Source: Pseudomonas sp. Q1-7
GTDB taxonomy: Bacteria; Pseudomonadota; Gammaproteobacteria; Pseudomonadales; Pseudomonadaceae
Reading direction: 5' to 3'
DNA length: 64,000 nucleotides
Assembly (NCBI RefSeq): GCF_028010285.1
Contig: NZ_CP116304.1
Coordinates: 884,501-948,500 of the forward strand
In this document: positions 12,729-18,300 of the stretch, one piece after another
Layout of the letters: each line of letters opens with the position of its first letter
Numbering within the stretch: the stretch's first letter is position 1
Position numbers and translations under genes: made by a program
Notes under the pieces: model-generated
Told to the model about the DNA's origin: nothing
What the model saw: only the letters and a program-made list of their open reading frames with translations
Database searches by the model: none

Positions 12729-13654
12729 TGGCCTTCGCCGTCGCTGGGCTGGGATTGAGTGCCGCCGGGCGGGGATTGCGGCGCTTGTGCGGCCGGTGGC
12801 GGGGTGTGGGTACGGCGGTGGGCCAGGGCGAAGTGCTCGACGGCGTCGAGGTCTTCCGCCTCGATCCGCGCGGCGCCGCGCCAGGCGGCATGGGCGCGGG
12901 CGGCGCGCAGCCATACCAGGTCGGCGCGCAGGCCGTCGACCCCGGCGGCGAAGCAGCGGCGGGCGATCTCGTCCAGCGCGGCGTCGTCCAGGGGAATGCC
13001 GGCCAGCCGGGTGCGGGCGTTCCGGCAGCGTTCGGCCAGGGCCTGTTGCTCGGTGTGCCAGCGGGCGACGAAGGCCTGCGGGTCGGCATCGAAGGCCAGG
13101 CGGCGTCGGACGATCTCGGCGCGCTCGGCCGGTTGCGGCTGGCCGTCCTGCAACACCTTGAGGCCGAAGCGATCCAGCAGTTGCGGGCGCAGTTCGCCTT
13201 CCTCGGGGTTCATGGTGCCGATCAGCACGAAGCGCGCGGCGTGACGGTGGGAAATGCCGTCACGCTCCACCAGGTTGACGCCGCTGGCGGCCACATCCAG
13301 CAGCAGGTCCACCAGGTGGTCGGGCAACAGGTTCACCTCGTCCACGTAGAGGACGCCGCCGTGGGCCTTGGCCAGCACGCCGGGGGAGAAGCGGGCGCGG
13401 CCTTCGCCGAGGGCGGCGTCGAGGTCCAGGGTGCCGACGATGCGTTCCTCGCTGGCACCCAGTGGCAGGGTGACGAAGCTGGCGTCTTCCAGCAGGTCGG
13501 CGATGCCCCGCGCCAGGGTGGACTTGGCCATGCCGCGCGGACCTTCGATCAGCACGCCGCCGATGGCGGGGTCGATGGCGGCGAGCTGGAGCGCCAGCTT
13601 CAGCTCATCGGCGCCGACCACGGCGCTGAGGGGGAAGTGGGGGAGGTCGGACAT
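12653..13654 (-). CDS. Chelatase AAA+ ATPase subunit (ChlI/BchI-like)
   Basis: This 333-residue AAA+ protein resembles the magnesium chelatase ChlI subunit. Walker A is GPRGMAKST (38-46), Walker B is VLYVDE (101-106), and the sensor region includes [21 protein letters not shown]. CobS/CobT-type cobaltochelatase subunits are not in the window, so this pair probably powers the CobN encoded at 15353-19087, as proposed for pseudomonads. The C-terminal 60 residues are Pro- and Gln-rich and poorly conserved in form. It overlaps the downstream VWA gene. Confidence 0.88.
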
Positions 13655-13722
13655 GGCAGATTCCTACGGACGCGTGCGGCGCATGGTAGCGAAACACCGG
13701 GGCGGCCGATAGAAAACAGTGA

Positions 13723-13751
13723 TTGAACGGCACGGGGCGATGCAGTAGGTT
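13723..13751 (+). promoter_or_regulatory. Putative sigma-70 promoter of the aroF leader transcript
   Basis: TTGAAC (13723-13728) and TAGGTT (13746-13751) are separated by 17 bp. A transcript would begin near 13758, about 20 nt before the first leader ORF. This spacing and position fit an attenuated biosynthetic operon. Confidence 0.5.
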
Positions 13752-13777
13752 AGCCAGCATTCGCTTTGGAGATCGTC

Positions 13778-13897
13778 ATGCCGCACACCGCTTCCACTTC
13801 GCCCATCGCTCGCCCGGCCTCGGCCCAGGCGCGTGTGCGTGTGGCCGCGGCGGCCAGCTATTTCCACGGGTATTGGTTTAGCCAGGGGCTGACCTGA
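13778..13897 (+). CDS. Leader peptide 1 of the DAHP synthase gene, aromatic-rich
   Basis: This 39-codon ORF starts at an ATG 6 bp after GGAG. Its C-terminal part reads SYFHGYWFSQGLT, so Tyr, Phe, Tyr, Trp and Phe codons are crowded into seven codons (28-34). A 6-bp hairpin overlaps the stop codon and a strong terminator follows 50 bp later. This is the layout of ribosome-mediated attenuation leaders such as those of trp and phe operons. Low charged tRNA for any aromatic amino acid should stall the ribosome and let transcription enter aroF. Inference from sequence only. Confidence 0.75.
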   Translation: MPHTASTSPIARPASAQARVRVAAAASYFHGYWFSQGLT

Positions 13898-13908
13898 TAC
13901 CCATCAGG
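13893..13908 (+). promoter_or_regulatory. Candidate pause hairpin at the leader stop codon
   Basis: CCTGAT-accc-ATCAGG forms a perfect 6-bp stem that includes the stop codon of leader 1. In attenuators a hairpin here pauses polymerase or competes with the antiterminator. Downstream GGCGGC and GCCGCC (within 13907-13936) could form a further alternative stem. Confidence 0.4.
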
Positions 13909-13945
13909 CGGCCCACTCCAGCAGGGTCGCCGCCAAAGCTCCACG

Positions 13946-13984
13946 AAACCCCCGGTCGGCAACCCGACCGGGGGTTTTTGTTTT
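13946..13984 (+). terminator. Intrinsic terminator (attenuator) before aroF
   Basis: A 14-bp perfect stem AAACCCCCGGTCGG / CCGACCGGGGGTTT with a CAAC loop spans 13946-13977 and is followed by TTGTTTT. It stands between the first aromatic leader ORF and the DAHP synthase gene, on the same strand, so it would stop transcription before aroF unless antiterminated. Confidence 0.85.
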
Positions 13985-14027
13985 CCAGGGTCCAAAAGAC
14001 CGAACCGACGTTACCGAGGATCGCACC

Positions 14028-14126
14028 ATGATCAGCTACCGCACCGACTCGACCTATTACCGCAACGACTGGCGATTTAGCCGCTCCCGTACCGCCCGCA
14101 CCCCCTTGAATCGAACACCCAGATAG
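14028..14126 (+). CDS. Leader ORF 2 between terminator and DAHP synthase gene
   Basis: This 32-codon ORF has a strong GAGGA site 7 bp before its ATG. It reads MISYRTDSTYYRNDWRFSRS at the start, with Tyr at 4, 10 and 11, Trp at 15 and Phe at 17, and an Arg-rich end. The ORF lies after the terminator and 44 bp before aroF. It could be a second aromatic sensor, a translational regulator of aroF, or an unrelated small protein. The good ribosome-binding site and aromatic content argue against chance. No homologue is known to me. Confidence 0.5.
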   Translation: MISYRTDSTYYRNDWRFSRSRTARTPLNRTPR

Positions 14127-14170
14127 CGCGCCGCGCGCGGATCGAGCCGCGCCGGCCGAGGACGCCAGTC

Positions 14171-15256
14171 ATGAATTCTTCCGTTTCCGTTCTGCCCACC
14201 GCTGTACCGCCGCTGCATGCCCTGGACGTGGTCATCCCGTCATCCCGCAGCACGCGTCCGCTGCCCACCCCTGCCGACCTGCGCCAGCGCCTGCCGCTGA
14301 CCCATGAGCTCGCCCGCCAGATCCGCGCCCAGCGCGAGGCCGTGCGCGCCGTGCTGGATGGCGAGGACTCGCGCCTGCTGGTGGTGGTCGGCCCCTGTTC
14401 CCTCCACGACCCGCAGTCCGCCCTCGACTACGCCCGGCGCCTCGCCGCCCTGGCACCCGAGGTGAGCGACCAGTTGCTGCTGGTGATGCGCGCCTACGTC
14501 GAGAAGCCCCGTACCACCGTGGGCTGGAAGGGACTGGTGTACGACCCACGGCTGGACGGCAGCGGCGACATGGCCGAAGGACTGGCGCTCAGCCGCCGGC
14601 TGATGCTGGACATCGCCGAGCTGGGCTTGCCGGTGGCCACCGAGTTGCTGCAACCCCTGGTGGCCGGTTACCTGGACGACCTGCTGAGCTGGGCCGCCAT
14701 CGGTGCGCGCACCAGCGAATCGCAGATCCACCGCGAGCTGGTCAGTGGCCTCGACCTGCCGGTGGGCTTCAAGAACGGAACCGACGGCAGCCTCGGCATC
14801 GTCACTGACGCCATGCGCTCGGCGGCCCATGCCCACCAGCATTTCGGCCTCGACGACCAGGGCCGTCCGGCGCTGGTGCAGACCGCCGGCAATGCCGATA
14901 CCCACCTGGTGCTGCGCGGCGGTCACCAGGGCCCTAACTTCGACGCCGAGAGCGTTCAGGCGGCCCGCGCCGGCCTGGAGAAGCTCGGTATCGCTCCGCG
15001 CATCATGGTCGACTGCAGCCACGCCAACAGCGGCAAAGACCCGCTGCGCCAGCCGGCGGTACTGGAGGATGTGATCGCCCAGCGCCTTGCCGGCCAGGAC
15101 GCGCTGCGCGGGGTGATGCTCGAAAGCCACCTGTTCGACGGCGCCCAGCCGCTGTCCTGCGACCTGCGCTACGGCGTGTCCATCACCGATGGCTGCCTGG
15201 GCTGGGAAGGCACTGCGCGCATCCTGCGGGAGGCGGCGGCGCGTCTGCGGGGGTGA
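14171..15256 (+). CDS. aroF: 3-deoxy-7-phosphoheptulonate (DAHP) synthase, class I alpha type
   Basis: This 361-residue enzyme condenses phosphoenolpyruvate and erythrose 4-phosphate, the first step of the shikimate pathway. Typical motifs are VVVGPCSLHDP near 75, MRAYVEKPRTTVGWKGL, ARTSESQIHRE, GFKNGTDGS, and IMVDCSHANSGK. The GPCS Cys and the late His/Glu/Asp residues form the metal site in this family. Two leader ORFs and an attenuator precede it. A DAHP synthase gene lies next to cobN in P. aeruginosa too (PA2943, from memory). Which amino acid inhibits the enzyme cannot be read reliably; the symbol is used for the family, not the inhibitor specificity. Confidence 0.92.
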   Translation: MNSSVSVLPTAVPPLHALDVVIPSSRSTRPLPTPADLRQRLPLTHELARQIRAQREAVRAVLDGEDSRLLVVVGPCSLHDPQSALDYARRLAALAPEVSDQLLLVMRAYVEKPRTTVGWKGLVYDPRLDGSGDMAEGLALSRRLMLDIAELGLPVATELLQPLVAGYLDDLLSWAAIGARTSESQIHRELVSGLDLPVGFKNGTDGSLGIVTDAMRSAAHAHQHFGLDDQGRPALVQTAGNADTHLVLRGGHQGPNFDAESVQAARAGLEKLGIAPRIMVDCSHANSGKDPLRQPAVLEDVIAQRLAGQDALRGVMLESHLFDGAQPLSCDLRYGVSITDGCLGWEGTARILREAAARLRG

Positions 15257-15273
15257 GCCGTGGGGATGCTCTC

Positions 15274-15356
15274 GTAGGTTGGGTAGAGCCTGCGAAACCC
15301 AACGTGCGGGCTCTACCTCGAAACGTTGGGCTTCGCTGCGCTCTGCACCAACCTAC
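15274..15356. repeat. Inverted dispersed repeat between aroF and cobN
   Basis: GTAGGTTGG at 15274 is matched by its inverse CCAACCTAC at 15348-15356, with internal CCCAACGT / ACGTTGGG arms, so the RNA could fold as a long hairpin on either strand. It separates two convergent genes and may act as a two-way transcript end. The cobN TAG stop codon lies inside the right arm. Confidence 0.6.
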
Positions 15357-18300
15357 TGTTCTTCGCTATCGAGCAGCAGGTTCTCGATCGCCTCGCGGTA
15401 GTCGCCCGGGTTTTCCCATAACCCGCGCTGCTGGGCTTCCACCAGGCGCTCGGCGATATCGCGCAGGGCCTCGGGGTTGTGCTGGCGAATGAACGCGCGG
15501 GTGTCCGGGTCCAGCAGGTAGGCATCGGCCAGTTGCCGGTACTGGTGGTCGTCCACCAGTTCGCTGGTGGCGTCGAAGGCGAACAGGTAGTCCACGGTCG
15601 CGGCCAGTTCGAACGCCCCCTTGTAGCCGTGGCGCTTCATGCCGGCGATCCACTTCGGATTGGCCGCGCGGGCACGAACCACGCGGGCCAGTTCTTCCTT
15701 GAGGCTGCGGATGCGTGGCAGGTCGGGCTGGCTGTGGTCGCCGTGGTAACTGGCGACCCTTTCCCCGCGCAGGGTTTCGGCGGCGGCGAGCATGCCGCCC
15801 TGGAACTGGTAGTAGTCGTTCGAATCGAGCAGGTCGTGCTCGCGGTTGTCCTGGTTCTGCAGCACCGCCTGCAAGCGTTGCAGGCGCTGGGCGAAGCGTT
15901 CCCGAGCCGGGGTGCCGGCATCCTGCGCGCCATAGGCATAGCCGCCCCAGTTGAGATAGACCTCGGCCAGCTCGGCGCGGTCCTGCCACTGGCGTGCCTC
16001 GATGGCGCCCTGCACGCCGGCGCCGTAGGCCCCGGGCTGGGCACCGAAGACCCGCCAGCCGGCCTGCAGGCGGGCATCTTCGACGGCCAGGCCTTCGGCG
16101 GCGAGGCGTGTGCTTTCCTGTTTCACCCGTGCCGCGAGGGGGTTCAGGTCCTCCGGTTCGTCCAGTTCAGCCACGGCCTGCACGGCGGCGTCGAACAGGC
16201 GGATGAGGTTGGCGAAGGCGTCGCGGAAGAAGCCCGACACCCGCAGGGTCACGTCCACCCGCGGACGATCCAGCAGGGACAACGGCAGGATTTCGAAGTC
16301 TTCCACTCGCTGGCTGCCGGCCTGCCACACCGGCCGCACGCCCATCAGCGCCAGGGCCTGGGCGATGTCGTCGCCGCCGGTGCGCATGGTGGCGGTGCCC
16401 CACACGGAAATACCGAGCTGGCGCAGGTGGTCGCCCTGGTCCTGCAGGTGGCGCTCCAGCAACAGGCTGGCGGACTGGAAGCCCAGGCGCCAGGCGGTGG
16501 GCGTGGGTAGATTGCGCACGTCCACGGTGAAGAAGTTGCGCCCTGTGGGCAGTACGTCGAGGCGGCCGCGGCTCGGCGCGCCGCTGGGGCCCGGCGGGAC
16601 GAAGCGGCCTTCCAGGGCGGCCAGCACGCCGCCGATTTCGGCGCCGCCGCAGGCATCCAGGGTGGGGGCGATCCGGGTCCGCAGGTTGTGGATAACCGCA
16701 TCGCTGGCGGCGCCGATGGAGCCGAAGTCGCGGGTCTCGATCAGGCCCAGGGCGAGCAGTTCCAGGCGTTCGCGGGTGTCTCCATTGCTGCGCCAGGGTT
16801 CCGCGCTGATGGCGTCCAGCACCGCAGGGCGCGGGCCTTGCCAGGGCTCGCCCCAGTTCAGGTCGAGCGGGTCGCTTCCCAGTTTCAGGTCACTGGCCAG
16901 GGCACGCAGCAGGCTGGCGTTGGCGCCCTTGCCATCGCTGCGCGGTATCCGCACCAGGGACAGCAGGGTGTCATCCCGCAGGCGTCCGGACGGCGACTCG
17001 CCGAACACATGGAGGCCATCGCGGATCTGCGATTCCTTGAGGTCGCAGAGGTAGGCATCCAGTTGCGGCAGCCAGCTGTCGGCGTCGTCGTTGAGGCCGA
17101 GGTTCAGCTCGCGGTCGAGTGAGGTTGCCCTCACCAGTTCGAGGATTTCTCCCCGCAGTTGCACGGCCCGGCGCGGGTCGAGCAGGGTCGCGTCGTAGTA
17201 TTCGTCGGCCAGCCGTTCCAGGTCGCGCAGGGGCCCGTAGGTCTCGGCGCGGGTCAGCGGCGGCATCAGGTGGTCGATGATCACCGCCTGGGCGCGGCGC
17301 TTGGCCTGGGCGCCTTCGCCGGGGTCGTTGACGATGAACGGGTAGATGTTCGGCAAGGGGCCCATCACCGCGTCCGGCCAGCACTCGGCGGACAGGCCGA
17401 CGCCCTTGCCCGGCAGCCATTCCAGATTGCTGTGCTTGCCGACGTGGACCAGCGCGTCGGCGGCGAAGACCTCCCGCAGCCAGAAGTAGAAGGCCAGGTA
17501 GCCGTGGGGCGGCACGAGGTCGGCATCGTGGTAGATGGCCGCCGGGTCCAACTGGTAACCGCGTGCCGGCTGGATGCCGACGAAGGCGAGGCCGCAGCGC
17601 AGGCCGGCGACCATCATCCTTCCGGCGCGGAACATCGGGTCCTGCTGCGGCTCGCCCCAGCGCGCGCGCACCGCGTGCTGGTTGGCCTCCGGCAGGCGGG
17701 CGAAACAGGCGAGGTAATCGGCCAGCGCCAGGCTTTGCGCGCAGGGACGCAGGTCGAGGTTGTCCAGGTCGTTGCTGACGCCACCCAGCAGGCTGTGGAT
17801 AAGTGCCGTGCCGCTGTCCGGCAGACCGGCCACGGGATAACCCTCGGCCTCCAGGGCGCGCAGGATGTTCAGCGCCGCTGCCGGGGTGTCCAGGCCCACG
17901 CCGTTGCCGATGCGGCCGTCGCGGGTGGGGTAGTTGGCGAGAATCAGCGCGACGCGCTTGTCGGCGTTGGCCTTGCGCGCGAGCGCGCACCAGCGCCGGC
18001 CCAATTCGGCGACGAAGTCCATGCGCTCGACCTGGGGCAGGTAGCAGACCACGTCGCTCTGGCTGCGCTCGCTGCGCCAGGCCAGGCCCTTGAAGCTGAT
18101 GGGGCGGGTGATGATGCGGCCATCCAGTTCCGGCAGGGCGATGTGCATGGCCAGGTCGCGCGGGCCCAGGCCTTGCGGGTTTTCGCGCCAGAGCGGTTCG
18201 TTGTCCAGCGAGCAGATGGCCTGCAGCACCGGAATGTCGCGGCGGAACGGGCGCGGGCCGGGAGTGTCCGGGTTGGACTGGGCGAAGCCGGTGGTGTTGA

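Follow-up and report, generated by a model that had tools for sequence, protein, structure and literature searches.

We found that, in a 64-kb window of Pseudomonas sp. Q1-7 (the whole stretch of DNA analysed, 64,000 nucleotides from a 5.78-Mb single-contig genome), the gene for 3-deoxy-D-arabino-heptulosonate 7-phosphate (DAHP) synthase is very probably preceded by a ribosome-mediated transcription attenuator that acts in cis. The direct basis for this reading is the anatomy of the region, its conservation, the complementarity of its RNA segments, the co-change of the two halves of one alternative pairing (segments 2 and 3) and the linkage to the gene. An earlier note on this DNA had also read the region as an attenuator, and our comparison of sequences supports it.

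The region is bounded on one side by the start of a minus-strand open reading frame (ORF) at 13654 and on the other by the DAHP synthase gene, whose product matches TIGR00034 with 440.2 bits against a cut-off of 173.2. From 5′ to 3′ it holds a promoter-like pair, a leader ORF (ORF1), a hairpin predicted over its stop codon, a further hairpin, a terminator, a second mini-ORF (ORF2), a possible hairpin and the Shine-Dalgarno (SD) sequence of the enzyme gene, as follows:

13723..13751, plus strand: promoter-like pair, TTGAAC (13723-13728), a 17-nt spacer and TAGGTT (13746-13751), from the sequence and its conservation in the genus
13768..13771, plus strand: SD sequence GGAG of ORF1, from the sequence and the comparison within the genus
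13778..13897, plus strand: leader ORF1, ATG at 13778, 39 codons, translated as MPHTASTSPIARPASAQARVRVAAAASYFHGYWFSQGLT, stop codon TGA at 13895-13897
13855..13974, plus strand: match to Rfam RF00627 (P15), 88.5 bits, from a covariance-model scan
13868..13876, plus strand: segment 1, GGGTATTGG (Gly-Tyr-Trp codons), with its partner in segment 2 at 13893-13902
13886..13902, plus strand: segment 2, the end of ORF1 with the stop codon, partner of segment 1 or segment 3
13903..13914, plus strand: segment 3, ATCAGGCGGCCC, partner of segment 2 (antitermination) or segment 4
13924..13934, plus strand: segment 4, GGGTCGCCGCC, partner of segment 3 or, through GCCGCC, of the terminator 5′ arm
13945..13984, plus strand: intrinsic terminator, segments 5 and 6, with its T-rich tail
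14016..14020, plus strand: SD sequence GAGGA of ORF2, from the sequence
14028..14126, plus strand: ORF2, second aromatic-rich mini-ORF, translated as MISYRTDSTYYRNDWRFSRSRTARTPLNRTPR, stop codon TAG
14070..14078, plus strand: TGG CGA TTT (Trp-Arg-Phe) codons of ORF2
14127..14158, plus strand: possible hairpin, downstream of the ORF2 stop and ahead of the SD sequence of the enzyme gene, z -1.2 in the window
14158..14162, plus strand: SD sequence GAGGA of the DAHP synthase gene, from the sequence and the comparison with relatives
14171..15256, plus strand: DAHP synthase gene (class I, AroFGH type), ATG at 14171, 361 amino acids

The RNA of this leader is a catalogued one. The match found by cmscan, well above the gathering cut-off of 70 bits, is to the family named “Pseudomonas sRNA P15”, which Rfam files as a small RNA (sRNA) gene and in whose table and alignment no leader ORF or regulatory role is mentioned. 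No T-box or known riboswitch is among the nine Rfam matches with an E value up to 5 in 13000-15500. We found P15 in 18 of 18 genomes of the genus, in 337 of 398 genomes of the family (331 exceed the cut-off) and in eight of 115 genomes of the order, four of these eight being outside the family and one of those four above the cut-off; none of 14 control genomes has a match. Antisense P15 matches (30-31 bits) overlap the terminator and were taken as this palindrome read backwards; two such loci, L002 and L020, are left out of all counts, which leaves 82 of the 84 P15 loci fetched: 18 from the genus, the 30 best-scoring matches of the family, 30 picked by hand over 13 genera and four from other families of the order.

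At every one of these 82 loci the next gene downstream on the same strand encodes DAHP synthase, with 61-100% identity to that of the window. Conversely, 61 genomes of the family are without P15, and among the 20 of these that were tested 18 show only a DAHP synthase homologue of 49-54% identity (E up to 1e-60). The other two are G052, with a homologue of 50% and a fragment of 63% identity (G052:C7:6740-7294, residues 177-361), and G065, a genome 70% complete that gave no DAHP synthase match at the same E value. Two further families of the order also have this leader ahead of the orthologue, and so does one genome from outside the order (L108), in which ORF1 is intact. An ORF1-like leader was present in 12 of 76 loci scanned, each time ahead of a homologue at least 55% identical; three loci of a further family (L142-L144) have a diverged leader with WWFGYGFYFS ahead of a homologue of 55-56%. 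No ORF1-like leader was seen at a few other homologues of 55-56% (L111, L113 and L124). The paralogous DAHP synthase gene of the window genome (53%) was considered as a second user of the leader and set aside, no such leader being seen ahead of it. As a side observation, locus L068 also holds a PrrF RNA (positions 17-165, 126.3 bits), at a distance of about 1.3 kb from P15.

The control stretch of ORF1 consists of Tyr-Phe-His-Gly-Tyr-Trp-Phe codons, just where the earlier note had placed it near the end of a 39-codon leader, and the C-terminal end of the peptide reads YFHGYWFSQGLT (SYFHGYWFSQGLT). None of 1000 dinucleotide shuffles of 13655-14171 yields an ORF of 12-60 amino acids with at least five aromatic residues in seven, and ORF1 is the sole ORF of this kind on both strands of the window, which together argue that it does not occur by chance. 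An aromatic leader ORF, with five to seven aromatics in its last 19 residues, spans the start of P15 in 82 of 82 loci, and single codons are kept nearly as well (GGG in 73 of the loci, TAT in 77, TGG in 79, TTT in 77, AGC in 78 and the TGA stop in 81). In the last 13 ORF1 codons of 77 loci, TAT outnumbers TAC by 177 to 19 and TTT outnumbers TTC by 147 to 36. The long ORFs of the window, 26 picked by length and not by annotation, use TAT at only 19% and TTT at only 10%, so that the control codons of ORF1 are the rarer (slow) synonyms. As judged from sequence, the region has two hallmarks of an attenuator, namely a short, translatable ORF with an SD sequence ahead of the gene and, conserved over the 82 loci, control codons whose amino acids are the end products of the pathway. 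The alignment proposed in the earlier note bore out its expectations: the aromatic codons, the position of the stop and the terminator are all conserved within Pseudomonadaceae, and also in other families.

Next we considered the structure of the leader RNA. The fold of 13855-13984 has a z score of -5.72, and none of 200 shuffles folds as well. Segments 1 and 2 pair over the stop codon (GGGUAUUGG with CCUGAUACCC), giving the hairpin that had been proposed at this place, and segments 3 and 4 pair as GGCGGCCC with GGGUCGCC; the strong terminator claimed ahead of the gene is present as a 15-bp stem (13945-13978) followed by a T-rich stretch in a terminator scan. Two pairings compete with these, 2:3 (GGGCUGACCUGAU with AUCAGGCGGCCC) and 4:5 (GCCGCC or GCCNACC with GGUCGGC of the terminator 5′ arm). 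The models suggest a chain of six segments in which 1:2, 3:4 and the terminator 5:6 would alternate with 2:3 and 4:5, and a six-segment chain is the architecture of the his attenuator. In the columns of 1:2, 3:4 and 5:6, 96.3% of cells are paired, a value that none of 500 shuffles reaches and that compares with at most 57.1% in slid controls; the terminator stem alone reaches 98.2% in alignment A1 (44 loci), with a gap in the stem of L074. When partners are permuted among 44 loci, none of 2000 permutations pairs as strongly as the true partners do in 1:2, 2:3 and 5:6. The halves of 2:3 change together: segment 2 of the type GGGCU(A/G) is accompanied by segment 3 GGCGGCC in 24 of 24 loci, and in the other 58 loci segment 3 is GGCGCCC in 51, GGCGGCC in two, GGCGGGCC in two and none of these in three. 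This co-change argues for a mutually exclusive 2:3 pairing, which is a further hallmark of an attenuator, as is the intrinsic terminator between ORF1 and the gene. The antiterminator for which the earlier note had asked is thus found in part, as the 2:3 alternative; the 4:5 pairing is complementary but not specific to its partner.

Several observations weigh against the attenuator or against parts of it. The promoter-like pair that the earlier note had described was located, and its TTGAAC box is kept in 18 of 18 genomes of the genus, with TAGGTT in 14 of them, TAAGTT in one and TAATTT in three; however, the -10 box is poor, and an automated promoter scan using a 9-of-12 rule found no promoter, the pair being below its threshold. 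The pairings 3:4 and 4:5 beat shuffled partners, yet 441 and 468 of 2000 permutations, respectively, equal the own partners. The permutations for all five pairings ignore the relatedness of the loci. Covariation in 1:2, 3:4 and 5:6 is slight: one pair is changed on both sides, against three in one slid control, and 495 of 500 shuffles have as many pair types. The 82 loci are moreover not a random set, 30 being the best-scoring and 30 picked by hand. In minimum-energy folds of the complete leader (six loci) the terminator is present in every state tried, so that antitermination must rest on the order of folding. Known attenuators do work by order of folding. Folds made without the terminator 3′ arm, obtained for 10 of 13 loci since the finder saw no terminator in the other three, vary by locus and contain 4:5 in only part.

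With the attenuator as the preferred reading, we infer the following course of events, in which the stalled ribosome, the folding order, the 4:5 step, the response to amino acids and P15 as the read-out are all conditional. Transcription would start near 13758 and a ribosome would translate ORF1. When charged tRNA for Tyr, Trp or Phe runs short, the ribosome would stall on the control codons and mask segment 1; 2:3 would then pair, segment 4 would be free for the terminator 5′ arm, and the DAHP synthase gene would be transcribed. When charged tRNA is ample, the ribosome would reach the stop codon and mask segment 2, 3:4 and the terminator would form, and termination would release a short RNA, the catalogued sRNA P15. 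ORF2 could be translated only on run-through RNA from the ORF1 promoter and, as a best guess, would serve as a later gate on translation or as a coupling to the gene.

ORF2 (14028-14126) is a second conserved aromatic ORF that the earlier note left out, although it lies inside the stretch (13723..14171) that the note described. A mini-ORF with TGG-CGA-TTT is found between terminator and gene in 78 of the 82 P15 loci, that is, 77 by automated count and L015, whose ORF2 fell beyond the range of the script; at L015 (genome G014) about 145 extra nt separate the P15 terminator from ORF2 in comparison with sister species. Three loci carry variants (Trp-Arg-Tyr in L068, TGG-CGC-TTT in L069 and Gly-Arg-Phe in L073), and L082 alone among the 82 is without ORF2. 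The 77 counted ORF2s, which were picked by TGG-CGA-TTT, hold five to eight aromatic residues in 76 cases and end on TAG in 67, and their stop codon (first base) lies 40-52 nt ahead of the ATG of the gene at 70 loci; in L083, L084 and L141, of another family, this distance is only 5-20 nt. At the level of DNA, each of the 18 genomes of the genus holds a single copy of the signature TATTACCG-N3-14-TGGCGATTT, and none holds it read backwards. A further set of 79 named loci (80 kept from a larger match set, minus one with too little upstream DNA), which overlaps with the P15 loci in genomes and is not independent of them, has ORF1 in 74, ORF2 in 75, both in 71 and the exact nine bases TGG-CGA-TTT in 74. 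It includes Halomonas as well as Chromohalobacter, Cobetia and Vreelandella, three genera assigned to the Halomonadaceae; its four Salinicola loci have no ORF2. The arrangement of ORF1 and ORF2 is common to Pseudomonadaceae and Halomonadaceae.

The other Arg codons of the 77 ORF2s are mixed (CGC 159, CGA 96, CGT 53, CGG 36 and AGA 27). Among the loci with Trp-Arg-Phe, the motif uses CGA for Arg in 78 and CGC in one, and this near fixation suggests that the codon or the RNA is under constraint and not the residue. Long ORF2s occur in Pseudomonas of the fluorescens, putida and viridiflava kind and in Halomonadaceae, and share, with some variation, WRFSxxRSxxxA(A/T)SDRxxxGG. A possible H-type pseudoknot starts inside them 9 nt past TTT (CGGUCGG/CCGACCG and GCCACC/GGUGGC), for example in L083, L141, L230, L232, L239 and L240; the short ORF2 of the window has none. 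Over 41 sequences 94.0% of its cells are paired, with slight covariation (score 0.081 against 0.123 in a control slid by +3) and with 12-187 of 500 shuffles as good, according to the measure. Stem 1 beats all 2000 permutations, a result that may mirror the split between Pseudomonas and Halomonadaceae, and stem 2 does not (316 of 2000 as good).

Three side observations concern ORF2. Its end in the window (14110-14126, ATCGAACACCCAGATAG) is strongly conserved in relatives, with rare Arg codons before the TAG. In L108 the nearest upstream ATG does not share its frame with an ORF2-like stretch (Tyr-Arg-Ser-Trp-Leu-Phe), which may be decayed or use another start. Loci L142, L143 and L144 have no ORF2 of the Trp-Arg-Phe type, the sequence of L143 having been inspected.

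Other explanations were weighed for P15 itself and for ORF2. It is very improbable that P15 is an independent sRNA acting in trans on targets of its own, to which leader ORF and downstream gene would be incidental. Rfam does file it as a gene, a passage of PMC2375449 counts it among the sRNAs detected by Livny et al. in P. aeruginosa (the screen of that paper itself discarded the P15 region), and products of attenuators can act in trans, as described in part of PMC7298713 for peTrpL of Sinorhizobium. An sRNA of this sort, however, would not account for an aromatic ORF and an adjoining DAHP synthase gene in 82 of 82 loci, for the lack of the orthologue in 18 of the 20 tested genomes without P15, or for conserved columns that are codons and attenuator segments. 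We infer from the sequences that P15 most probably represents the leader RNA of the cis attenuator after premature termination; its detection by Livny et al., as related in PMC2375449, fits premature termination. Given a real attenuator, ORF2 could still be a mere spacer that keeps run-through RNA translated and safe from Rho, with no sensing of amino acids, which we regard as rather unlikely. This would suit the position of ORF2 in a stretch of about 190-260 nt between terminator and gene, the shorter gap in L082, which lacks ORF2, and the weak constraint on the peptide (20 of 63 single-base variants synonymous against 12.1 expected in 32 long ORF2s, and 15 of 50 against 12.9 in 22 short ones). 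A spacer would need neither TGG-CGA-TTT, kept in 78 of 82 P15 loci and 74 of 79 named loci, nor five to eight aromatics in nearly every copy.

ORF2 could also act on the enzyme gene. In a translational gate of the erm/cat type, a ribosome stalled at Trp-Arg-Phe would free the SD sequence of the enzyme and a ribosome at the stop codon would hide it. A hairpin between ORF2 stop and SD sequence has a mean z of -2.5 over the 29 loci scored, and in 45 of 77 loci a ribosome at Trp is predicted to leave the SD sequence more accessible than one at the stop, the reverse holding in eight. Compared with ribosome-free RNA, on the other hand, stalling raises the access in 15 of 77 and lowers it in 31; the hairpin is weak in the window itself and absent in L077 and L081 (z 0.4), and the gap is too short in L078, L083 and L084. 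The modelled SD access points to no clear gate, and we consider this possibility less likely than not. An arrest peptide or small functional protein is improbable: in its favour are the conserved Trp-Arg-Phe and a sequence common to the long forms of Pseudomonas and Halomonadaceae, but the near-fixed CGA hints at codon or RNA, the distance from Trp to stop takes two very unlike values (54-57 nt or 108 nt in 71 of 77 loci), and constraint at the peptide level is weak. A second transcription attenuator of the usual type was ruled out in the window by the lack of an intrinsic terminator after ORF2 (scan of 13201-14400). A frameshift fusion of ORF2 with the enzyme was also considered, and most loci list no in-frame start codon upstream of that of the enzyme. 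Our best guess, a later translational gate or coupling, ranks first among these roles. A further proposal, which we consider less likely than not, is a two-stage serial switch: leader 1 would act on transcription, and leader 2, with its near-invariant slow TGG-CGA-TTT codons and, in the long ORF2s, possibly a pseudoknot just after them, would act on translation of the one DAHP synthase mRNA, and both would sense the supply of Tyr, Trp and Phe.

Attenuation of trpE and trpGDC is known in Pseudomonas, which places attenuation of an aromatic pathway in the same genus, but at other genes. With the trp, phe and his attenuators of Proteobacteria the leader has in common control codons, pause hairpin, antiterminator and terminator, and it differs from them in having three aromatic amino acids in one stretch, DAHP synthase as its target and a downstream aromatic ORF; for the his leader of Rfam, 13901-13983 gives only a weak match (20.5 bits, the cut-off being 49). 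RF00627 is the same RNA, catalogued differently, as an sRNA gene. A similar system is aroR-aroF of Corynebacterium glutamicum, an aromatic-codon leader peptide ahead of a DAHP synthase gene with ribosome-mediated attenuation (Neshat et al. 2014, as cited in a passage of PMC11802643; predicted in PMC4046766). It is actinobacterial, has Phe-Tyr-Phe with Trp not named, and responds to Phe and not to Tyr (PMC11802643), and the passages of these two papers mention no second ORF. A premature trpGDC 3′ end next to a possible upstream ORF is described in part of PMC8297930, and a term search found neither “DAHP” nor “P15” in the main texts of PMC8297930, PMC2965389 and PMC3460626. The statement of the earlier note that no leader of this form had been described therefore needs qualifying: the RNA is in Rfam and aroR is known, while no description of a Pseudomonas DAHP synthase leader was found among the matches listed, which leave most subscription papers, including the original P15 paper, uncovered. 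Leader-peptide attenuation, and one leader ahead of a DAHP synthase gene, are thus known already; as far as the literature search reaches, P15 as an attenuator, a three-amino-acid control stretch in proteobacteria and ORF2 are new.

If correct, this reading would supply the function of an Rfam family now filed as an sRNA, and it would account for the control of entry into the shikimate pathway in pseudomonads, with one ribosome reading the supply of all three aromatic amino acids. The near-invariant Trp-Arg-Phe codons of ORF2 raise the question of whether two aromatic sensors act in series on one mRNA. The leader may also be relevant to the engineering of Pseudomonas putida strains for aromatics.

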